57,792 bases of DNA from Bacteroidota bacterium (GTDB taxonomy: Bacteria; Bacteroidota; Bacteroidia; Palsa-965), in NCBI GenBank assembly GCA_016194975.1, contig JACQAM010000024.1, positions 1 to 57,792 on the forward strand, read 5' to 3'. A program made the translations under genes and the position numbers. Shown in pieces: positions 6,534-42,700 of this stretch. Below the pieces are notes generated by a model. That model did no database searches, was not told the origin of the DNA, and worked only from the letters and a program-made list of their open reading frames with translations. Numbering within the stretch: the first letter of the stretch is position 1; every line of letters starts with the position of its first letter.

Positions 6534-9500
6534 TTGAACCTGGAGGAAATTGTAGGGGCATTCGGGAACAGTCCTGCCATCGACACGATTGTTTCTGAAA
6601 CGAACAGGCAGACAGCGGCAAAAATTCAATTGCGTGGATTAGCCGGATCTGCAGGGGCTTTTTTTGCCTCGGCCGTAATAAAAAAAACTTCTCACTCTCA
6701 TCTTTTCATTCTGCCGGATAAAGAATCGGCTGCCTATTTCCTCAATGACCTCGAAGAAATAACTCAGGTAAAAAATGAAGCGGGCGAACTGAAAAATTTT
6801 ATTCCTGTATTATTTTTTCCTTCTTCCTATCGCAAAGCATACCAGCCGGAAGAAACAGATAATGCCAATGTGCTGCTTCGCGCAGAGGTACTCGACCAGG
6901 TGAGGAATTGTGATCGCGTTGCGGTGGTTACTTATCCCGGCGCGCTTTCGGAAAAAGTGGTGACAAAAAAATTGCTGGAGAAAAATACGCTGCCATTAAA
7001 ACGCGGAGAAAAAATTTCCATCGCATTCGTCACTGATCTTTTGCATGAGTATGGTTTCGACCGGAATGATTATGTATATGAAGCCGGGCAATTTGCGGTG
7101 CGTGGCGGGATCGTGGATGTTTTTTCCTATGCCAATGAATTTCCGTATCGCGTAGAATTTTCCGGCGATGATGTGGAATCCATTCGCACCTTCGACCCTT
7201 CCACACAACTTTCCGTAAAAAATCTCGATCGCCTTACCATCATTCCGAATGTGCAGGGAAAATTATTGGTGGAGAGCCGCGAAACTTTCCTTCAGTATTT
7301 TGCCGCAGAAAAAAAAGAGTCGCCACACCTTACCTGGATCTGGGATATGGAATCGGCTGCTTCTCTTGTGCAGGAGGAATTCGATATTGCTTCAGAAATT
7401 TTTGAATCTCAGAAAGAAGATTCCCCGGTGCGGCATCTTGCTCCTTCCGAAAAATATTGCAACGGAAAAGATTTTCAACTGGAACTGGAAAATTTTTCAT
7501 TGGTGGAATGCGGCAACCGTTTTGTAATGAACAATGCGACAGAAATTCCGTTCAACATTTCCCCGCAGTCTTCCTTCCGGAAAAATTTTGATCTGCTCAC
7601 ACAGGCGCTCGCAAAAAATTCGGCGAATCATTATCACAACATCATTTTCACCGACGGCGTAAAACAATCGGAACGGCTGCATTCTATTTTCGAGGACATA
7701 GGCCGCAAACTCGATTACGTTACACTCGTCCATTCCATTCACGAAGGATTCATTGATCATGACCTGAAGATCGCCTGCTATACCGATCACCAGATCTTCG
7801 AACGCTATCACCGTTTCCGTTTGCGCGACGGATTCCAGAAAAATAAAGAAGCGATGTCGGTCAAAGAATTGCGCGGACTCAATCCCGGCGATTTTGTCGT
7901 GCACATCGATCACGGCGTGGGACGTTTCGGCGGACTGGAAAAAATTGAAGTGAATGGAAAATTACAGGAAGCGATACGACTCGTTTACCGCGACAATGAT
8001 GTACTGTATGTGAGCATTCATTCCCTGCATCGTGTTTCAAAATATTCAGGGAAAGATGGAAATGTTCCGCGCATCGATAAGATCGGCAGTGTTGCGTGGC
8101 AGAATTTAAAACAGAAAACAAAATCGCGCGTCAGGGAAATTGCATTCGACCTGATCAAACTTTACGCGGCAAGAAAAGCGCAGAAAGGTTTTTCCTTTTC
8201 TCCCGATAATTATTTACAGAATGAACTCGAAGCATCTTTCATTTACGAAGACACGCCCGACCAGTTGCGCGCCACGCAGGATGTGAAACGCGATATGGAA
8301 GATGCACATCCTATGGACCGGTTAGTTTGCGGCGATGTCGGTTTCGGAAAAACGGAGATCGCTATTCGCGCTGCGTTCAAAGCGGTGTGCGACAGTAAAC
8401 AGGTTGCTGTGCTTGTTCCCACCACGATCCTTGCATTACAGCATTACAAAACTTTTTCAGACCGGCTGAAAGATTTTCCGGCGAAGATCGAATACCTCAA
8501 TCGTTTCCGTTCTGCAAAAGAAAAAAAAGAAATTCTCCACAAATTAGGAAAAGGAGAAGTTGACATCCTCATAGGCACGCACACGCTCGCGGGTAAAGAA
8601 ATAATATTCCGCGATCTCGGACTGATGATCGTAGATGAAGAACAGAAATTCGGCGTAGCCGTGAAAGACAAATTAAAAACGATAAAGACCACGGTCGATA
8701 CACTTACGCTCACGGCTACTCCCATTCCCCGAACGCTGCAATTCTCGCTCATGAGTGCGCGCGATCTCAGCATCATCAACACGGCTCCTCCGAATCGTTT
8801 TCCGGTGCAGACCGAGTTGCATACCATGAATGAGGAATTGTTGCGCGATGCGATCCGTTTTGAAATTCAGCGCGGCGGACAGATATTTTTTGTGCACAAC
8901 CGCGTGAGTGATATTTTTTCCATTGCTGCGCTGGTGCAGAAACTTATCCCCGATGCAAAAGTTGCAGTGGGCCACGGACAAATGCAGGGACATCAACTGG
9001 AGAAAGTGATGCTTGATTTTGTGGAAGGGCAAACTGATGTGCTTGTTTCCACTACCATCATCGAATCGGGGCTCGACATCAGCAATGCAAATACGATCAT
9101 CATCAACGACGCACAGAATTTCGGGCTGAGTGATCTTCACCAGATGCGCGGGCGCGTAGGACGTTCGAATAAAAAAGCATTCTGTTATCTCATCACTCCA
9201 CCGCAATTCATGCTCACCGCCGAAGCGCAGAAACGTTTGCGCGCTATTGAAGAATTTTCCGATCTCGGTTCCGGTTTTCAGATCGCAATGCGCGATCTCG
9301 ATATCCGCGGTGCAGGAAATTTATTGGGCGGAGAACAAAGCGGATTTATTTCTGACATTGGATTTGACATGTACCAGAAAATTCTCGACGAAGCAATACG
9401 CGAATTAAAGGAAACCGAATTCAAAGAATTATTCAAAGAAGAAGAACAACGGCGCGGGCAGATGCGCAACAACACGGGCGCAAAACACGTAGGCGTGTAC

Positions 9501-10140: not shown

Positions 10141-10304
10141 GAGTTGCGCTATTCGGGAGAATAGGAGAATTATTTTTTGAAAAGGGAAGTTGTGCCTGCC
10201 CGACCCAAACCGGGGCGGGCCTGCCCGACCCAAACCGGGCGGGCCTGCCCGACCCAAACCGGGGCGGGCAACGGCCACCGCTGTTAGGTGCTGTGCCTTG
10301 TTGT
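10141..10304. repeat. Island repeat site A (three GC hairpin units, attC-like right end)
   Basis: Begins GAGTTGCGCTATTCGGG and is followed by three direct copies of a 24-26 bp unit (CCTGCCCGACCCAAACCGGG plus GCGGG) at about 10194-10270, each able to fold on its own CCCG/CGGG arms. It ends in CACCGCTGTTAGGTGCTG then CCTTGTTGT. The GTTAGGT word fits the GTTRRRY end of integron attC sites. Site E (13795-13934) is a second copy with two units. Confidence 0.65.
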
Positions 10305-10990: not shown

Positions 10991-11569
10991 GTTTTTTTCT
11001 GTCTGTCGAGATGTAGAGATTGTCTTGCCGTTGAAATCAATTTTATATTTTGTTTTATAAAAATCCGTCACCTCGATATGGTCTGCGTGCAATGAAAATG
11101 CGTCACTGTCCAACTCTACGAAAATGTCATGACCACCGTACTTCCATTTTATTTTTCCGTCTCTGTCAAGGCGAGTGATTTCCATTTCTCCATGGACGAT
11201 ATAGTCGGCTTGCAATTTTAATATTTGGAAACAGGTTACGCTGTCCACCTTAGTTTTCCATTTGAGTTGCAAGTCGGGAAGAGTCAAACTGAAAATGGTG
11301 TCGCAGCAACAGACAACTAATTGGTCGTTGTCCACGAGCGATGCTGTCGGGTGAATATTTGTCGCGCCACCGACTGCGAGAAGAAGACAATTATTTATTT
11401 CTTGTTCGGCTTTGAATATTTTTATTCCGTGCTTTGAAGTCGGACGAAACTTTCCGATGTCGGTTGAGTAAATTTTGGAATAAATAATATTATTGTCCGC
11501 TGAACCGAGCGTATAAGTCGGGTCGTTAAAAATTTCAATTGTTAAGTCTTTGTAGATGTGTCTTTGCAT
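10982..11569 (-). CDS. Orphan cassette protein with WD/PQQ-like beta content
   Basis: 195 aa from ATG 11569; the upstream TTG at 11584 is inside a repeat and less likely. No signal peptide. Features are SADNNIIYSKIYSTDIGKF, AVGGATNIHPTASLVDNDQ, LVVCCCDTIFSLTLPDLQLKW, and RLDRDGKIKWKYGG. The pattern matches a hypothetical protein family I recognise from scattered single-gene insertions in Bacteroidota and cassette contexts, with blade-like beta repeats. Function unknown. The gene is bracketed by inverted repeat arms (10960-10990 and 11580-11614), and its last codons (Asn-Gly-Asn-stop) are supplied by the repeat itself. Confidence 0.7.
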   Translation of the reverse strand: MQRHIYKDLTIEIFNDPTYTLGSADNNIIYSKIYSTDIGKFRPTSKHGIKIFKAEQEINNCLLLAVGGATNIHPTASLVDNDQLVVCCCDTIFSLTLPDLQLKWKTKVDSVTCFQILKLQADYIVHGEMEITRLDRDGKIKWKYGGHDIFVELDSDAFSLHADHIEVTDFYKTKYKIDFNGKTISTSRQTEKNGN

Positions 11570-13794: not shown

Positions 13795-13934
13795 GAGTTG
13801 CGCTATTCGGGCGAATAGGGGAATTATTTTTTGAAAAGGAGAGTTGCGCCTGCCCGACCCAAACCGGGCGGGCCTGCCCGACCCAAACCGGGGCGGGCAA
13901 CGGGCACCGCTGTTAGTGGTTCGTGCTTTGTTGT
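13795..13934. repeat. Island repeat site E (two GC hairpin units)
   Basis: A second copy of site A: GAGTTGCGCTATTCGGG, GAATTATTTTTTGAAAAGG, two (not three) copies of the CCTGCCCGACCCAAACCGGG unit at 13848-13899, then CACCGCTGTTAGTGG and TTTGTTGT. It marks the left edge of the NYN/NACHT segment. Confidence 0.65.
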
Positions 13935-34665: not shown

Positions 34666-36051
34666 TTATTTGTTAATAACGATTTTTTGAGAGAATATTT
34701 TCTCGTCGGTCTTTAACATCACAAAATAAATTCCGTTTGGCTGACCGGTTAAATCAATTGTTGATTGTAGATCGTTGATCGTTGATTCGAAAATACTTTG
34801 CCCAAGCATATTGCAAACAGAAATTTCTCCGTTGGTAGTGTTGGAATACAACGTGAAGATTCCGGAGGAGGGATTGGGGAAAAGGGAGAGAGAGGCAAGG
34901 GAATTGTTTTCATTGATGCCTAATGGCATAAATTGATATCTAAATATTGTGCCATGACTATAAACTCCACCAACAGTCGTCATTCCATAAAGATAACTTC
35001 CAATTACTAACAATGAACCACCGGGACCAGCACCTGTCGCTGCGCCAAAAAAATCAAGATATTTTGTGTACGAAGTTCCATCATTTCTTATTTTAAATAA
35101 AGTTCCCCATGCGCTTACTCCACCACCGGCGGTCATTCCATATAAGAATGATCCGTTGCAAATCAGGGAACCATAGGGACTGCTTCCATTTGTTGCACCA
35201 GCAAAATCCAGTAATTTGACATATCCGGTTCCATCTGGCATTATTTTAAAAATTGTTCCATCTGTATTTACTCCACCCTGCGTTGTCATTCCATATAAAA
35301 AAGTTCCGTCGGAAGCTAGAGAACCTTCAGGATATTTTCCATTTGATGTTCCCAAAAAATCAAGCAGTCTTGCATATCCTGTTCCGTCAGGTAAAATCTT
35401 AAATATCGTTCCATCGTTATTGATTCCCCCATACTGAGTCATCCCATACAAATAATTACCATCATATGTAAAAGTACCCCAGGGAAAACTGCCGGTCGTT
35501 GAGAGAGAAAAATCAAGCAATTTTAAATAGCCCGTCCCATCAGGCAAAATTTTAAATATTGTTCCATCGTTATTGATTCCCCCTCGTTTAGTCATTCCAT
35601 AAAGAAAAGTTCCGTCAGAAATAAGAGAACCATCGGGTTCGTTTCCGTTAGACGCTCCAGCAAAATCCAAAAGTTTCATATAACCTGTTCCGTCAGTTAA
35701 TATTTTAAAAATTGTTCCTTTACCATATGTTCCGCCCGTAGAAGTCATTCCATATAGAAATGTTCCATCATAGTATAAATCACCAACAGGTTGAGCTCCA
35801 TTTATGAAAAAATTAAAATTCATCAAGGTGTCATACGCCGTTCCATCTAATTTTATTTTAAAGATATTTCCATACGAATTAGTTCCACCTTGATAATTCA
35901 TTCCATACAAAAACGTCCCGTCTGAAATAAGAGAACCGGAAGGTTGACCACCATTAGTCGTTCCGTTGAAATCAAATAGTTTTGTATACTGCCCTTTCAT
36001 CAATAAAGCATTTCCAACAAAAAATAAAATCAAAAAAAATATCCTTTTCAT
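34666..36051 (-). CDS. GloVer-repeat secreted protein with T9SS type A tail
   Basis: 461 aa from ATG 36051; signal peptide MKRIFFLILFFVGNALLMKG. Residues about 25-380 are eight or nine repeats of about 44 residues with SLISDGTFLYGMTxxGG, GTIFKIxPDGTGYxKLLDF. This is the pattern of choice-of-anchor tandem repeat GloVer proteins, thought to form a beta-propeller. The C-terminal type A domain contains LSLFPNPSSGIFTLYSN and ends KIVINK. The DNA repeats are close enough to recombine. Role unknown; secreted or surface-bound. Its sorting domain resembles that of the 32423 gene at DNA level, including an inserted run of ATTGTTGAT-like words. Confidence 0.85.
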   Translation of the reverse strand: MKRIFFLILFFVGNALLMKGQYTKLFDFNGTTNGGQPSGSLISDGTFLYGMNYQGGTNSYGNIFKIKLDGTAYDTLMNFNFFINGAQPVGDLYYDGTFLYGMTSTGGTYGKGTIFKILTDGTGYMKLLDFAGASNGNEPDGSLISDGTFLYGMTKRGGINNDGTIFKILPDGTGYLKLLDFSLSTTGSFPWGTFTYDGNYLYGMTQYGGINNDGTIFKILPDGTGYARLLDFLGTSNGKYPEGSLASDGTFLYGMTTQGGVNTDGTIFKIMPDGTGYVKLLDFAGATNGSSPYGSLICNGSFLYGMTAGGGVSAWGTLFKIRNDGTSYTKYLDFFGAATGAGPGGSLLVIGSYLYGMTTVGGVYSHGTIFRYQFMPLGINENNSLASLSLFPNPSSGIFTLYSNTTNGEISVCNMLGQSIFESTINDLQSTIDLTGQPNGIYFVMLKTDEKIFSQKIVINK

Positions 36052-36078
36052 CACGGTAAGATTTGCGAATAGGTTGAT

Positions 36079-36086
36079 CAAATATA
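36079..36086 (-). promoter_or_regulatory. -7 box of the GloVer gene
   Basis: Minus strand TATATTTG, full match, 27 nt before ATG 36051. No TTG at standard spacing. Confidence 0.4.
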
Positions 36087-36130
36087 GAACATCCAAATCA
36101 TAAAATCCATTCTACCAAATTTTCCCTCAC

Positions 36131-36157
36131 AAAAAAAAGGCCGGCTTCCGCCGACCT
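36131..36157 (-). terminator. Intrinsic terminator of the glutamine synthetase gene
   Basis: AGGCCGGC (36138-36145) and GCCGACCT (36150-36157) form a stem with one mismatch and a 4-nt loop. On the minus strand it is followed by eight T residues (36131-36138). Confidence 0.75.
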
Positions 36158-36181
36158 CTTTCAAATCTCAAATTTTTGAAT

Positions 36182-38371
36182 CTATTTCGTAAACAACATT
36201 TCCCTGTATTTCGGAAGCGGCCACATTTCATCGGCAACTATGGCTTCTAATTTATCTACGTGTTCGCGGATAATTTCGAAACACGGTTTCACTTTATTGC
36301 AATACGCATCTGTACGTTTTTTCATGTCGTCGATGTTGTTTGCTTTTCTCCTTTCATCGATCATCGCTTCCACGTTTGTTTTTATTCCGTTCACATGATC
36401 GGAAATTGAAGTGATCATTTCCAATTGTGTGGCAGCGGCTTTTTTGAATGCGCCGGCGTCGAGTACACTTTTCAGCCCGGTAACATTGGTGATGAGTGTA
36501 TTCTGGTATTGCAGCGCAGTCGGAATAATGACGTTCACTGCAAGATCGCCCATGACGCGCGATTCGATCTGGATTTTTTTCACGTACGTTTCGAGATAAA
36601 TTTCATAGCGTGCGTGCTGCTCGCGTTCGGTGAGCACGTTGTGACGCTCAAACATTTTCATGAATTTTTTATTCGTCCATGCTTCGAGCGCTTCCGGCGT
36701 GGTTTTGAAATTACTCAGCCCGCGTTTATTTGCTTCCTTCACCCACTCCTCGCCATAACCGTTTCCTTCGAAGCGGATGCGTTTGCTTGCCACAATATAA
36801 TCGCGCAGCACCTGGAAGATGGCGACATCTTTTTCTTTTCCTTTTGAGATGAGTGCGTCCACATCTTTTTTGAATTCGGTGAGCTGATCGGCGACGATCG
36901 TGCTGAGCACCGTCATGGCGCCCGAACAATTTGCGGAAGAACCGACGGCGCGGAATTCAAATTTATTACCGGTGAATGCGAACGGAGAAGTTCTGTTACG
37001 ATCGGTATTGTCGAGCAGAATGTCCGGAACTTTTATCACATTTAATTTCAACGCTGTTTTTTCGTCAGGCGACATTTTTCCGCTTTTCACTCTCGCTTCA
37101 ATTTCATTGAGCGTTGAAGACAATTGCGATCCGAGAAAAACAGACATGATCGCAGGAGGCGCTTCATTCGCACCAAGGCGATGATCATTTCCTGACGAAG
37201 CGATGGTTGCGCGCAGCAGATCGGAATTATCATGAAATGCTTTTATCGTATTCACAAAAAAAGTAAGGAACTGCAGATTCGTCTTCGGCGTTTTTCCCGG
37301 GCTCAATAAATTTTTTCCGGTATTCGTTGCCATCGACCAGTTGTTATGCTTACCGCTTCCATTTACGCCTGCAAATGGTTTCTCGTGCAGCAACACGCAG
37401 AAATCATGGCGGCGCGCAACTTTCTGCATCAGGTCCATGAGCAATTGATTGTGATCGACCGCTAAATTTATTTCTTCGAAGATCGGCGCGCACTCGAATT
37501 GATTCGGCGCAACTTCATTGTGACGCGTTTTAATTGGAATACCAAGTTTGTGCGCTTCAATTTCGAGATCGCGCATGAACGCGGTGGCGCGATCCGGAAT
37601 GGAACCGAAATAATGATCTTCGAGTTGTTGTCCTTTCGCCGGCGCAGCTCCGAATAAAGTTCTTCCTGTTGTTGCGAGATCGGGACGCGCATTGTGCAGC
37701 GCTTCGTCCACGAGAAAATATTCCTGCTCCCACCCGAGTGTCGCAATTACTTTCGTGATGTTCTTATCGAAATACTGGCACACATCGACAGCCGATTTAT
37801 CGAGCGCATGCAATGCTTTCAGCAACGGAGTTTTAAAATCGAGCGTGTCGCCGGTGTAAGAAACAAAAATGGTAGGAATGCAAAGTGTATCGCCGATGAT
37901 GAATGCAGGTGAAGAAGGATCCCACGCGGTATAACCCCGCGCTTCGAATGTATTTCTTATTCCCCCGCTTGGAAAACTGGAAGCGTCCGGTTCTTGTTGT
38001 GCTAATTGTCCACCGCCAAAACGTTCAATTGCTCTTCCACCTTCTATGGGTTCAAAAAATGCATCGTGTTTTTCTGCGGTTGCTCCTGTGAGGGGTTGAA
38101 ACCAGTGCGTGTAATGCGAAGCGCCTTTTGAAATGGCCCATGATTTCATTCCCGCAGCAATTGCTTCCGCCATTTTCCTGTCTATGCGTTCGCCTTTTTC
38201 TATTGCACCTTCTACACTATTGTAAGCTTCTTCGGAAAGATGAAGACGCATGGCATCTTTTCCGAAAACATTTTCACCGAAATAAGCGGCTACACCACCT
38301 GCAGGCGTATCTACCCATAAAGGTTTGCGCGACATGGATTGTTCGAGGGCTTTGAAGCGGATTTTGGACAT
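36182..38371 (-). CDS. glnA: Glutamine synthetase class III
   Basis: 729 aa, the normal size of the GSIII (GlnN) class found in Bacteroidota and cyanobacteria. It forms glutamine from glutamate, ammonia and ATP. Signature parts: N-terminal GSIII domain (PLWVDTPAGGVAAYFGENVF), GWEQEYFLVDEAL with catalytic acidic residues, RHNEVAPNQFECAPIFEE, VNGSGKHNNWSMAT, and FRAVGSSANCSGAMTV. Cytoplasmic. It has its own -7 box and terminator, so is monocistronic. No ammonium transporter or PII gene is adjacent. Confidence 0.96.
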   Translation of the reverse strand: MSKIRFKALEQSMSRKPLWVDTPAGGVAAYFGENVFGKDAMRLHLSEEAYNSVEGAIEKGERIDRKMAEAIAAGMKSWAISKGASHYTHWFQPLTGATAEKHDAFFEPIEGGRAIERFGGGQLAQQEPDASSFPSGGIRNTFEARGYTAWDPSSPAFIIGDTLCIPTIFVSYTGDTLDFKTPLLKALHALDKSAVDVCQYFDKNITKVIATLGWEQEYFLVDEALHNARPDLATTGRTLFGAAPAKGQQLEDHYFGSIPDRATAFMRDLEIEAHKLGIPIKTRHNEVAPNQFECAPIFEEINLAVDHNQLLMDLMQKVARRHDFCVLLHEKPFAGVNGSGKHNNWSMATNTGKNLLSPGKTPKTNLQFLTFFVNTIKAFHDNSDLLRATIASSGNDHRLGANEAPPAIMSVFLGSQLSSTLNEIEARVKSGKMSPDEKTALKLNVIKVPDILLDNTDRNRTSPFAFTGNKFEFRAVGSSANCSGAMTVLSTIVADQLTEFKKDVDALISKGKEKDVAIFQVLRDYIVASKRIRFEGNGYGEEWVKEANKRGLSNFKTTPEALEAWTNKKFMKMFERHNVLTEREQHARYEIYLETYVKKIQIESRVMGDLAVNVIIPTALQYQNTLITNVTGLKSVLDAGAFKKAAATQLEMITSISDHVNGIKTNVEAMIDERRKANNIDDMKKRTDAYCNKVKPCFEIIREHVDKLEAIVADEMWPLPKYREMLFTK

Positions 38372-38399
38372 GGAAGTATTATTTTTTAAGTTTCGGGAG

Positions 38400-38407
38400 C
38401 AAATTTA
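38400..38407 (-). promoter_or_regulatory. -7 box of glnA
   Basis: Minus strand TAAATTTG, full TAnnTTTG match, 28 nt before ATG 38371. No clear -33. Confidence 0.4.
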
Positions 38408-38510
38408 TCCAAAAACATGGGGGTGCTTCTTTAAAAAGTGTACTTTTTTTGTAAACAGGTGTGGAAAACAGGGGGGTGAATTAGAATATTTGAGATTTGA
38501 AACTTTGAAA

Positions 38511-38946
38511 ACACATCTCAAACCGAGGATCACATATCTGAAACCGAGGATCAGATGTCTCATTCCGAGGATCACATATCTCAAACCGAGGATCACATAT
38601 CTCATTCCGAGGATCACACATCTGAAACCGAGAGTCACATATCTGAAACCGAGGATCAGATGTCTGAAACCGAGAGTCAGATGTCTGAAGCCGAGAGTCA
38701 CATATCTCAAACCGACGATCACATATCTCAAACCGAGGATCACATATCTCATTCCGAGGATCACATATCTCATTCCGAGGATCACATATCTCATTCCGAG
38801 GATCACACATCTCATTCCGAGGATCACATATCTCATTCCGAGGATCACATATCTCAAACCGAGGATCAGATGTCTCAAACCGAGGATCACATATCGGAAA
38901 CCGAGGATCACATATCTGAAACCGAGAGTCACACATGTAAAACCGG
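38511..38946. repeat. 21-bp minisatellite of about 21 units
   Basis: Tandem units with consensus ATCACATATCTCAAACCGAG plus G. Variation falls in blocks: CACATATC/CAGATGTC/CACACATC, TCAAACC/TGAAACC/TCATTCC, and GAGGAT/GAGAGT. The unit is seven codons long, so frames on both strands stay open; none can be called coding with confidence. There are no spacers, so it is not a CRISPR array. A lone diverged unit lies at 39239-39256 (GAAATATCCGAAACCGAGAG). Confidence 0.9.
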
Positions 38947-39046
38947 GCACTTTAGGTGTTAATATTTTTCAGACGCGATTGCCCTGCCGGAGGGATACTT
39001 TACAACCCCGTTCGAAAAATTTTCCCCGAAGTTGGGCAAGGTTCAA

Positions 39047-39280
39047 TCATTGTGTTTTCGCCATGCGCTTGCTATCTACTACTTGTCCGTCCACCACGAG
39101 TGCATAGGTGTACAACTTTGATAAGACGAAAGCCAAGAGGTTATTGCTAGCAAGCGTTCCATGTTTACACCCGCTTCCTTTTCCTACAAAAGTATTTTCT
39201 ACTCCGGGCACTTGAAGCACATCAAAACCATTTATGAAATATCCGAAACCGAGAGTGTTGTTGTTGGTGATGCCCTCTGC
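39047..39280 (-). pseudogene. C-terminal remnant of a secreted (T9SS/S74-like) protein
   Basis: A minus-strand frame between stops encodes AEGITNNNTLGFGYFINGF, VLQVPGVENTFVGKGSG and ends YTYALVVDGQVVDSKRMAKT plus Gln-stop. The last part fits the terminal strand of Bacteroidota sorting or S74-linked tails (YxYSLxVDGKxVDxKxM). No start codon or upstream body is present. The stretch coding NTLGFGY carries the same word as the minisatellite unit, which suggests the array grew from this gene. It could also be a frameshifted end of a gene interrupted by the array. Confidence 0.45.
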
Positions 39281-39303
39281 TTACAAACAGAAAATATAAA
39301 AGA

Positions 39304-39681
39304 TCAATCCCTCTTCACCGAATCTCCCGGGGTGAGTTCGTTCGGCTCATCGGGTTTGCGCGTCTCCTCTGTTTTTTCTTCTGCATAATGTTTTTCAATA
39401 TTTGAAATTCCTTCTGCAATATTTTTTTTGATCGAGTCGGTTGCGCTGGTAATTTCTTTCAATTCATTTTCAATATTCACTTCGCGCTGAATTTCTGCAG
39501 AACTTTTTTCGATCTCTCTTTGAATTTCCGCTGTTGCATTTTTCATCTCGCGCATGCCTTTACCGAGCGCGCGCGCCATGTCAGGTAATTTATCGGCACC
39601 AAAAAAAATAAGGATAAACATCACGATGAGAAAAACTTCTCCCGATCCGAGATTCAGAAATAAAACAATGAATGCGTTCAT
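39304..39681 (-). CDS. tatA: Twin-arginine translocase subunit TatA/TatB-like
   Basis: 125 aa from ATG 39681. One N-terminal membrane helix (GEVFLIVMFILIFFGADKLP) is followed by the TatA hinge FG and the amphipathic helix (MARALGKGMREMKNATAEI). A long, charged, coiled-coil-like tail with repeated EIQREI/SSAEIQREV follows. It forms the pore part of the Tat system for folded proteins in the inner membrane. The FGADKLP version is usual in Bacteroidota. It lies after secDF on the same strand but a terminator separates them; a -7 box lies 5 nt before the start. Confidence 0.9.
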   Translation of the reverse strand: MNAFIVLFLNLGSGEVFLIVMFILIFFGADKLPDMARALGKGMREMKNATAEIQREIEKSSAEIQREVNIENELKEITSATDSIKKNIAEGISNIEKHYAEEKTEETRKPDEPNELTPGDSVKRD

Positions 39682-39686
39682 CATTA

Positions 39687-39694
39687 CAAATGTA
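39687..39694 (-). promoter_or_regulatory. -7 box of tatA
   Basis: Minus strand TACATTTG, full match, ending 5 nt before ATG 39681. No TTG at 17-23 nt. Confidence 0.4.
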
Positions 39695-39718
39695 AGAATA
39701 GAATCTGCGTGAAAACAG

Positions 39719-39752
39719 AACAGCCGTTACTCGGTGAAAAGCAACGGCTGTT
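39719..39752 (-). terminator. Terminator of secDF
   Basis: AACAGCCGTT (39719-39728) and AACGGCTGTT (39743-39752) form a perfect 10-bp stem, loop 14 nt. On the minus strand it is followed by CTGTTTTC, a short T run. It lies 19 nt after the secDF stop. Confidence 0.7.
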
Positions 39753-39770
39753 TTAACAGGATGATGGATT

Positions 39771-42700
39771 TTATTTCGCAGCATCAGCATCCTTGCGGCG
39801 ATCGAAATCGACCACGATAGGAGTAGCAATGCACAATGAAGAATAAGTTCCGATGATGACACCGATAAGAAGCGCGAAAGAAAAACCGCGGATGGTTTCT
39901 CCACCGAACCAGAATATCGCCGAGAGTACGAAGAAAGTGATCATGGAAGTATTGATGGTTCTTGTCAATGTAGAATTCAAAGCATAGTTGATCGTAGAAC
40001 GTTTTTCCATATTGCCAAGTGTCTTTCCTTCCTTGGCAAGGAATTCGCGGATCCTGTCGAATACCACAACGGTATCCGTCATTGAATAACCCATCACGGT
40101 AAGGATCGCGGCGACGAAATGCTGATCGACTTCCAATGGGAAAGGAAGAATTCCATCGAAGATCGTGTAACAGGAAAGTACTACGAGCACATCATGCACA
40201 AGCGCGGCCACGGCGCCGAGTCCGTATTGCCATTTCCGGAATCGCATGAGAATGTAAAGAAACATCAGGATGCACGAGACAATGATCACGACAAAAGATT
40301 TTGCAATGACCTCATTCGCGATCGTTGGCCCCACTTTTATAGAACTCAACACTTCGTATTTGGCTCCTCCGTCACCCGAATTAATTCCGGCATCTAATTT
40401 TTTACGAACCAGCGTATCTACCGCACCGGTCACTTCATTCGCCATATAGTTCGTCGTAATTTTCAGCTGGTCATTACCACCGGCAGTTTTCACTTCCGGC
40501 GCCATTCCAAACTGAACTTTCAGCGCCTCGCGGACCTTTTCACGATCCACATTTTTTGTAAAACGCACCGTGTAAGAACGGCCACCGCTGAAATCCACAC
40601 CGAGGGTGAATCCATTATGCTTGAACCAGAAAATAACGCCGGTAATAATAATGGCGCTGGAAAACATATAATAGAATTTTCTTCTTCCCACAAAATCGAC
40701 CTTCGCATTTCGCAAAACATTTTCAGTTGCAGGAACAGAGAAAGGAATTTTCTGCTCTTTCTTCAGCATCCAGTCGAAAATAAGCCGTGTAATAAATATC
40801 GCGCAGAAAAGAGAACTGATGATACCAATGATAAGCGTAGTAGCAAATCCCTGTACCGGTCCTGTTCCGAATGAATAAAGAATGATACCGAGAATAAGTG
40901 TAGTGAGGTTCGAGTCAAGAATGGAAGACATCGCATGCTTGTAACCATCGGCCAGCGCATTGTTCAGTGATTTTCCTTCGCGCAATTCCTCGCGCACACG
41001 CTCGAATATGAGCACGTTCGCATCCACCGAAAGTGCGATCGTGAGTACGATACCTGCAATACCGGGAAGTGTGAGCACTGCGCCGAGTGAACTGAGAATT
41101 CCCATAATGAAAAACACGTTCACGAAAAGTGCGATGTCGGCAACCCAGCCCGCTTTGTTGTAATAGAATCCCATGTAGATGAGAACGACAACGAGCGCTA
41201 CGAGGAAGGAGATCATTCCTGCACGGATCGCTTCTTCACCAAGCGTTGCGCCCACCACTGTTTTTTCCACGATGATCGCAGGAGCAGGAAGTTTTCCGGT
41301 ATTCAAAACATTCACTAAATCATCCGCTTCTTTGTTCGTGAAATTTCCGGTGATCTGCGAAGTTCCATTCGGAATTTCACCTTGTACTGTTGGATACGTG
41401 TAAACATAATTATCAAGAACAATGGCAACACTTCTGCCCACATTCGCTTTGGTGAGTCGTGCCCAGGAATGTGTTCCCTCTGCATTCATCGTCATGGAAA
41501 TTTCCGGTGAGCCGGAACCATTCATGCGATCGAATTGTTTGCGCGCATCGGTAACCACATCGCCCATGAGTGATGCGCGTCCTTCAGGCCCTGCTTTAAG
41601 TGCAATGAGATAAAGGAATGGTTGGCCTGTTGTGAGATATTCCGGTTTTACACTCCACGCAAAACGCATATCGTGCGGGAACATGGGCGCAATTTCGGGT
41701 CGCCGCAGGTAACCCGCAATGACGGAAGTATCTTTAACGAGCACACCGAAAAGCATCGGGCCTTTCCCTTGTTGATTGCTTAGAACAATATGATCGCTGA
41801 TCGGGGTTGCTTCGTTTTTTCCTGCTGCTTTATTGGCTGCCTGTGTAAGTGAATCGAGCGCTTTCTTCGTACTGTCAACACGTTTTACTTCTGTGATCCA
41901 GTTTTTATTCGCAATAGAATCGGCGTGCAGGGAATCTTTTTTTGTTTTTGCATCCTTGTAAACTGCAATCTTCTTTGTTGAATCGGGGAACAGTGTATCT
42001 TTTTTATAACCGAGAAGGACGCTGAGTTTATCATTCGCCTCTTTCAGTTTCGGAGCCACTTCACTGTATTCATAAGTTTCCCAGAATTCAAGATTAGCCG
42101 CGGTCTTCAGAAGATGATCTACTCGCTCTTCATCTTTTACACCCGGAAGCTCCACGAGAATTCTGTTTGTTCCTTTCAGGTGCTGCACATTGGCTTGGGC
42201 TACTCCGAATTTATTGATACGCGTTTCAATGACAAGTTTTGCGCGATCTACAGCTGCTTCATTTTCTTTCCTGATGGCAGCGAGTACCTGCTCATCCGTA
42301 GAATTGAAAGTGATATCATATTGTTTAAGCTGTGCTGCGAAAAGACTGGAGAGGCGCGCCTGCGGGTTCTGCGCGCGATAAGCTTTAGCAAAAAGCGAAA
42401 TGAAATCTTCATTCGATTTCAGCTGTGCGTCTTTTGCTTTCAGAATAGCTTGCGTAAAATCGGGCGAGTTGGAATAATTCGCGAGTGCACGAATAATATC
42501 AGGCGTCGAAACTTCGATCGTCACGTTCATTCCGCCTTTGAGGTCAAGACCAAGATTCAACTCTTTGTCTTTGCAACTCTCATACGTGTAAAGTCCGAGG
42601 TAGATCTTTTTTCCTGCAATAGAATCGTCGAGGAAAAAATGTTCGCGTGCGGTGATCACCGAATCGATGATCTCTCTCAGTTTGATGGAATCGCCGTTAG

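Follow-up and report, generated by a model that had tools for sequence, protein, structure and literature searches.

What is a 21-bp tandem repeat doing between two genes of a bacterium of the Bacteroidota, and from which sequence did it arise? The repeat in question, array A, lies in a window of 57,792 nt (the whole stretch of DNA that was analysed), in which three proteins carry Por_Secre_tail domains (Pfam), in line with this phylum. With moderate confidence we favour the explanation that array A is an intergenic, non-coding minisatellite, i.e. that a 21-bp unit derived from a gene grew in tandem, seeded a second array and has persisted as a tolerated spacer.

The array and its units

Array A is intergenic and TRF describes it as a 21-bp unit in 20.7 copies with 87% matches. 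It is flanked by the genes for a type III glutamine synthetase and a TatA-like protein. The features concerned are the following.

36182-38371, minus strand: type III glutamine synthetase, a neighbouring gene (Pfam GSIII_N, Gln-synt_C and Gln-synt_C-ter)
38489-38502, no strand: a pair of heptads, TTTGAGA-TTTGAAA, bordering array A on the left and of the type seen in the short heptad arrays of this genome
38511-38945, no strand: array A, a 21-bp minisatellite with 20 complete units (38516-38935) and the consensus TCTCAAACCGAGGATCACATA (TRF, with an analysis of register and variants)
39304-39684, minus strand: TatA-like protein, a neighbouring gene (Pfam TatA_B_E)

The initial annotation had given a span of 38511 to 39256. 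This span does correspond to array A together with a gene remnant that we describe below, but it is not one array. Elsewhere in the window TRF reports two short arrays (10194-10269 and 13848-13898) that have a common unit, GCCTGCCCGACCCAAACCGGGGCGG.

Prokaryotic satellites have been described as intergenic tandem repeats with four or more units of 10-200 nt, some being heptamer-derived (Subirana and Messeguer 2019, PMC6749651), and array A, with its head-to-tail units, falls within this definition as far as the accessible part of that paper sets it out. The unit length is a multiple of 7, as in heptamer-derived repeats. A CRISPR array can be dismissed, as the units of array A abut without spacers.

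The units were said to vary by whole blocks, and this is borne out by the 34 complete units of array A and of its sister, array B (see below), which draw on just a few block alleles. The first block is TCTCAAA (15 units), TCTGAAA (9), TCTCATT (8) or one of two singletons; the middle block CCGAGGA (24), CCGAGAG (5), CCGAGGG (2) or one of three singletons; and the last block TCACATA (18), TCAGATG (7), TCACACA (5), TCAGACA (3) or a singleton. TCTCAAA and TCTCATT are not bridged by a one-step intermediate in any of these 34 units. The 20 units of array A fall into 11 distinct types, and neighbouring units are more similar than under a shuffled order (p 0.036).

A candidate founder in a gene remnant

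A good starting point for the origin of the unit is the region between array A and the TatA-like gene.

39050-39280, minus strand: remnant reading frame of 77 codons, the halves of which match different proteins while the middle is missing; no Pfam match
39236-39256, minus strand (reads TLGFGYF): stray unit, the candidate founder, matching array units at 18 of 21 positions, and at 17 of 18 over 39239-39256

The lone diverged unit that had been noticed at 39239-39256 is indeed present and exceeds chance. Its 17/18 match to an array unit was not equalled in 200 dinucleotide shuffles of the flank or in 1118 windows of the same length from the genome, the best score being 16 in both controls; when all 21 positions are counted, the match of 18 is also attained by one of the 1118 windows. 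A genome-wide search with the pattern AYATCNGAAACCGAGAGT, which was written to accept both the array and the stray forms, returned two sites in array A and one at the stray site when no mismatch was allowed. One mismatch added array sites only and two mismatches added two unrelated places, leaving the stray site as the sole match in the genome at 0-1 mismatch outside arrays A and B. Within array A the stray unit is matched best by 38912-38929, a segment that extends into the last complete unit, which is the one nearest to the stray site.

The remnant itself also agrees with its earlier description as encoding the tail of a secreted protein. Its last 30 residues resemble secreted-protein tails on contigs C3 (70%) and C13 (60%) of the same genome, and tails in 5 of 38 relatives match it as well. 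The first half resembles a protein on contig C11 (58-59% over about 32 residues). We call this frame a remnant because the part between the matched halves is missing.

Did the unit come from the gene, or the gene segment from the unit? The stray heptapeptide TLGFGYF aligns without gaps to FLNDGYR in the C11 protein and to SLNTGYR in a protein of the relative G007, with L and GY in common. Since the family alignment is gapless and these residues are kept, the unit appears to be native to the gene, and on these comparisons the gene is a more probable source of the unit than the unit is of the gene segment. The origin from coding sequence that had been suggested for the array is therefore supported by the uniqueness of the stray unit, the matches of the remnant and this alignment. 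The opposite direction, in which the array converted the remnant, may instead apply; no closer relative shows the gene as it was before the array grew.

A sister array at an unrelated locus

The initial annotation had proposed looking for other arrays of this unit in the genome, and one was found. Array B, on contig C6 (G000:C6:180945-181239), has 14 units and is 86% identical to the query. It sits in a gap unrelated to the locus of array A, and the flanks of the two arrays have nothing significant in common outside the units. The gene adjoining array B was found in none of the four same-genus genomes searched, two of which are only 66% and 72% complete.

Arrays A and B have four unit types in common. 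The longest run of unit order common to both is 40 bp, and this was equalled by 168 of 200 shuffled orders; a block transfer between A and B is thus not supported by the unit order. Array B has a higher-order period of four units (84 bp, p 0.0004). Its neighbouring units are less alike than shuffled ones (p 0.979), which fits the four-unit period and not simple copying of neighbours. Growth by unequal exchange, as had been supposed, is supported within this one genome by the similarity of neighbours in array A and the 84-bp period of array B.

These observations suggest the following history. A 21-bp stretch, i.e. seven codons, of a decaying gene would first have been duplicated in tandem. The array would then have lengthened, with its variants being mixed by slippage or unequal exchange. 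Finally, a piece of array A may have seeded array B on contig C6.

Is the unit a trimer of heptads?

The most serious alternative to a gene-derived unit is that the 21 bp consist of three heptads, forming a higher-order repeat that arose from 7-bp arrays of the TCTCANA type, the match in the remnant being due to a later exchange. We consider this unlikely, but it has several points in its favour. Runs of the TCTCANA type occur at four places in this genome against none for the reversed control, two heptads of this type abut the left edge of array A, and the unit blocks TCTCAAA and TCTGAAA recur as heptads at C7:141251. Within the unit there are matches at lag 7 at 9 of 21 positions (p 0.05). 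The block similarities, however, are 2, 2 and 5 of 7, with the middle block CCGAGGA matching each of the others at only 2/7.

Runs of a longer heptad pattern were found in 47 of 395 genomes of the class, yet the same pattern is without a match in the array's own genome. Furthermore, the reversed control by our count matches 28 of the 395 genomes, and the class signal is therefore not specific to this heptad. In the relative G074, which hosts many 21-bp arrays, only 3 of 23 units attain 9 matches at lag 7 and most lack a heptad substructure. At array A the match to the gene explains more than a trimer of heptads does.

Repeats of other short units also occur. At a further locus (L003) an identical 24-bp run of 8-bp repeats, CGCAAAGACGCTAAGGCGCTAAGA, is found twice in 3.5 kb, at 7994-8017 and 11439-11462.

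Does the array have a function?

The position of array A raises the question of whether it controls the glutamine synthetase gene. An alignment of 190 bp upstream of this gene in eight genomes, including the one studied here, contains a conserved block.

38372-38480, minus strand: block conserved upstream of the glutamine synthetase gene, including a TAnnTTTG-like box and situated between the gene and array A (eight-genome alignment)

We take the box to be of the Bacteroidetes promoter type; in the same eight genomes the block also has A-rich and C-rich stretches. Array A begins just beyond, i.e. upstream of, this block. A direct upstream position is what one might expect of a regulatory element, e.g. 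a set of sites at which proteins bind to the same face of the helix. Twenty-one base pairs are two helical turns, and a different array occupies the corresponding gap in the relative G007. We nevertheless regard a regulatory role as improbable. The gaps of relatives have no array of this sequence, the unit recurs at an unrelated locus as array B, and its palindromy is not beyond chance (p about 0.8). Palindromic sites are not a common rule either, as 7 of 28 units tested have p values of at most 0.022 and the others, that of array A included, do not.

The gap itself can be followed among relatives. The glutamine synthetase gene adjoins a TatA gene in seven of eight loci from the same genus and family; in the eighth, that of G005, there is none within 1.5 kb. 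An array with the sequence of array A was found at the glutamine synthetase gap in none of these eight. Two of these gaps host other repeats: in G007, of the same family, the gap between the two genes contains a 14-bp unit in 9.7 copies (L043:2033-2165), and in G006 a 26-bp repeat in 2.9 copies. Array A does not intrude into the conserved promoter block, and it is therefore most likely spacer DNA that is tolerated.

It is still less probable that the array moves as, or within, a mobile element. One observation that suggests this is the pair of 56-bp direct repeats flanking array B, identical at 54 of 56 positions (L002, 1282-1337 and 1808-1863) and with no further copy in the genome. The lack of any significant likeness between the flanks of A and B argues against it, as do the searches of mobile DNA: a BLAST search with the array found nothing among plasmid and phage records, and a pattern of two units had no match in the viral_contigs collection. 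The same pattern had none in genome_contigs; records of near relatives may be absent from both collections. A search of 38 relatives for the unit of array A gave a single weak match, which is an array of the heptad CATATCT (7 bp).

Could the array encode a protein or an RNA? The initial annotation reported that all frames were open. This holds for five of the six, namely the three plus frames and two of the minus frames; the remaining minus frame is closed by two stops in every unit. Both of the heptapeptide frames that had been pointed out, the GFRYVIL type and the HISQTED type, are present, and ORFs with start codons cover the array. We consider translation into a protein of seven-residue repeats to be the most improbable of the readings weighed here, because a 21-bp unit without stops stays open of itself and no frame has a clear excess of synonymous changes. 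The highest frame has 17/54 against 15/63 among possible changes, and the HISQTED-type frame just 3/54. Clear codon conservation was not found in the array frames, and the conserved protein that had been named as the finding to set against a minisatellite is not seen by these codon counts. A structured RNA is rejected: Rfam covariance models gave no match up to an E value of 1 in the region 36000-42000, and array A folds less well than all 100 shuffles, both as plus-strand DNA (z +3.24) and as minus-strand RNA (z +3.15).

In short, array A is probably an unstable minisatellite that has no function, and a candidate founder lies next to it.

Unit lengths across relatives

Array units in the sampled relatives are often 7, 14, 21 or 42 bp long while their sequences differ, which raises the possibility that the length, rather than the sequence, is what is favoured. 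The intergenic sample of the genome studied here has nine runs at lag 7 and six at lag 14, with 0-2 at each other lag from 4 to 21 (one at lag 21). In its coding set, lag 7 accounts for 12 runs and lag 21 for 19; the lag-21 figure is probably due to spurious ORFs that overlie arrays.

The periods of TRF arrays with a score of at least 50 are consistent with this pattern. Periods that are multiples of 7 make up 14 of 31 in 18 stretches of this genome and, in relatives, some of whose stretches were chosen near heptad matches, 10 of 18 (G001, G003, G006 and G007), 12 of 16 (G016 and G074) and 1 of 3 (three other genomes). At the start of contig 1 in 40 genomes (667,772 bases, including stretches of N in L137, L139 and L147) the figure is 22 of 54 for periods of up to 60. 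When the arrays are restricted to those with at least four copies, 70 bp and a score of 80, all eight have periods of 7, 14 or 21 and six have 21, although two of these six are A and B themselves and many of the loci had been chosen for heptads. Arrays of 21 bp with other sequences are seen at L078:461-709 (G275), L129:2397-2511 (G014) and L167:861-956 (G096).

The richest case is G074. Since it was picked for close examination on account of 21-bp arrays noticed earlier, the density found there does not represent the class.

L164, L119, L120 and L172-L191 in G074: 21-bp periodic stretches, mostly of differing sequence

In 405,207 bases of this genome 20 stretches are 21-periodic and 24 are 42-periodic, with at most two at every other lag from 10 to 49, once a stretch of N (L189), counted once at every lag, is subtracted. 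Two of the arrays, L178 and L179, are alike in reverse complement when compared by eye. The genes flanking 23 of the arrays are divergent in eight cases, codirectional in eight and convergent in three, with four uncalled.

A convenient example of turnover is the array upstream of guaB. We surveyed 21 genomes, two of which have no true guaB match, and among the 19 loci read the array is found in G074 only, with just 245 bp of upstream sequence available at one of the others. One of the other 18 loci, all of the genus, has a heptad array in place of the G074 array, and the upstream sequence can be aligned over about 60-90 bp only, in four relatives. It follows from this presence and absence that arrays are gained and lost whereas their unit length is retained.

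The 21-bp step may reflect a length-biased process of array formation in these bacteria. We put forward, tentatively and at less than even odds, a process in some Bacteroidia that builds tandem arrays from any local sequence with a step of 21 bp (and 7).

Relation to known repeats

How do these arrays compare with repeats that have been described before? The prokaryotic satellites of PMC6749651 are intergenic tandem repeats like array A and some are species-specific and scattered, scattered non-coding families being termed rare there; the portion of that paper available to us describes no class of 21-bp units with differing sequence. Direct repeats of the heptamer TAACTGA in Beggiatoaceae and Bacteroidetes (MacGregor 2015, PMC4679880) are similar, judging from the part of the report consulted, in being intergenic, in occurring in Bacteroidetes and in being absent from the same gap of near relatives. 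They differ in that their unit is 7 bp with one fixed sequence, whereas that of array A is 21 bp with block variants. The G-rich heptamer repeats of Xanthomonas and Nostoc (Rehm 2015, PMC4692102) have an intergenic position in common with array A and vary in length between relatives. In the sections of that paper at hand they are reported to form G-quadruplexes, whereas the unit of array A has no run of three or more G.

The tandem repeats of archaeal Borgs (PMC9879509), according to the excerpt available, arise independently and have sequences unique to each site, in which they can be likened to the arrays described here. Their units, however, are perfect copies of variable length, whereas here the variants are block-wise at a fixed 21 bp; array A, with its 11 unit types, is therefore not a repeat of the Borg type. 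Repeats with units of 6-9 bp are enriched in prokaryotic phyla, as stated in the accessible part of PMC12699852. We found no intergenic class of 21-bp arrays with differing units in the open-access literature, as far as its available portions go.

Implications

It is by sequence that tandem arrays are usually classified. Among the relatives sampled here the sequence varies by locus and the unit stays at 21 bp, and a fixed length with a changing sequence suggests that a physical or enzymatic step is involved in the birth of arrays. A length-governed array process in the Bacteroidia is at this stage a lead. If it is correct, the process has left about one 21-bp array per 20 kb sampled in G074, and array A would be a case in which the source sequence is visible beside the array. 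A candidate founder next to its own array offers an uncommon opportunity to learn how minisatellites begin.
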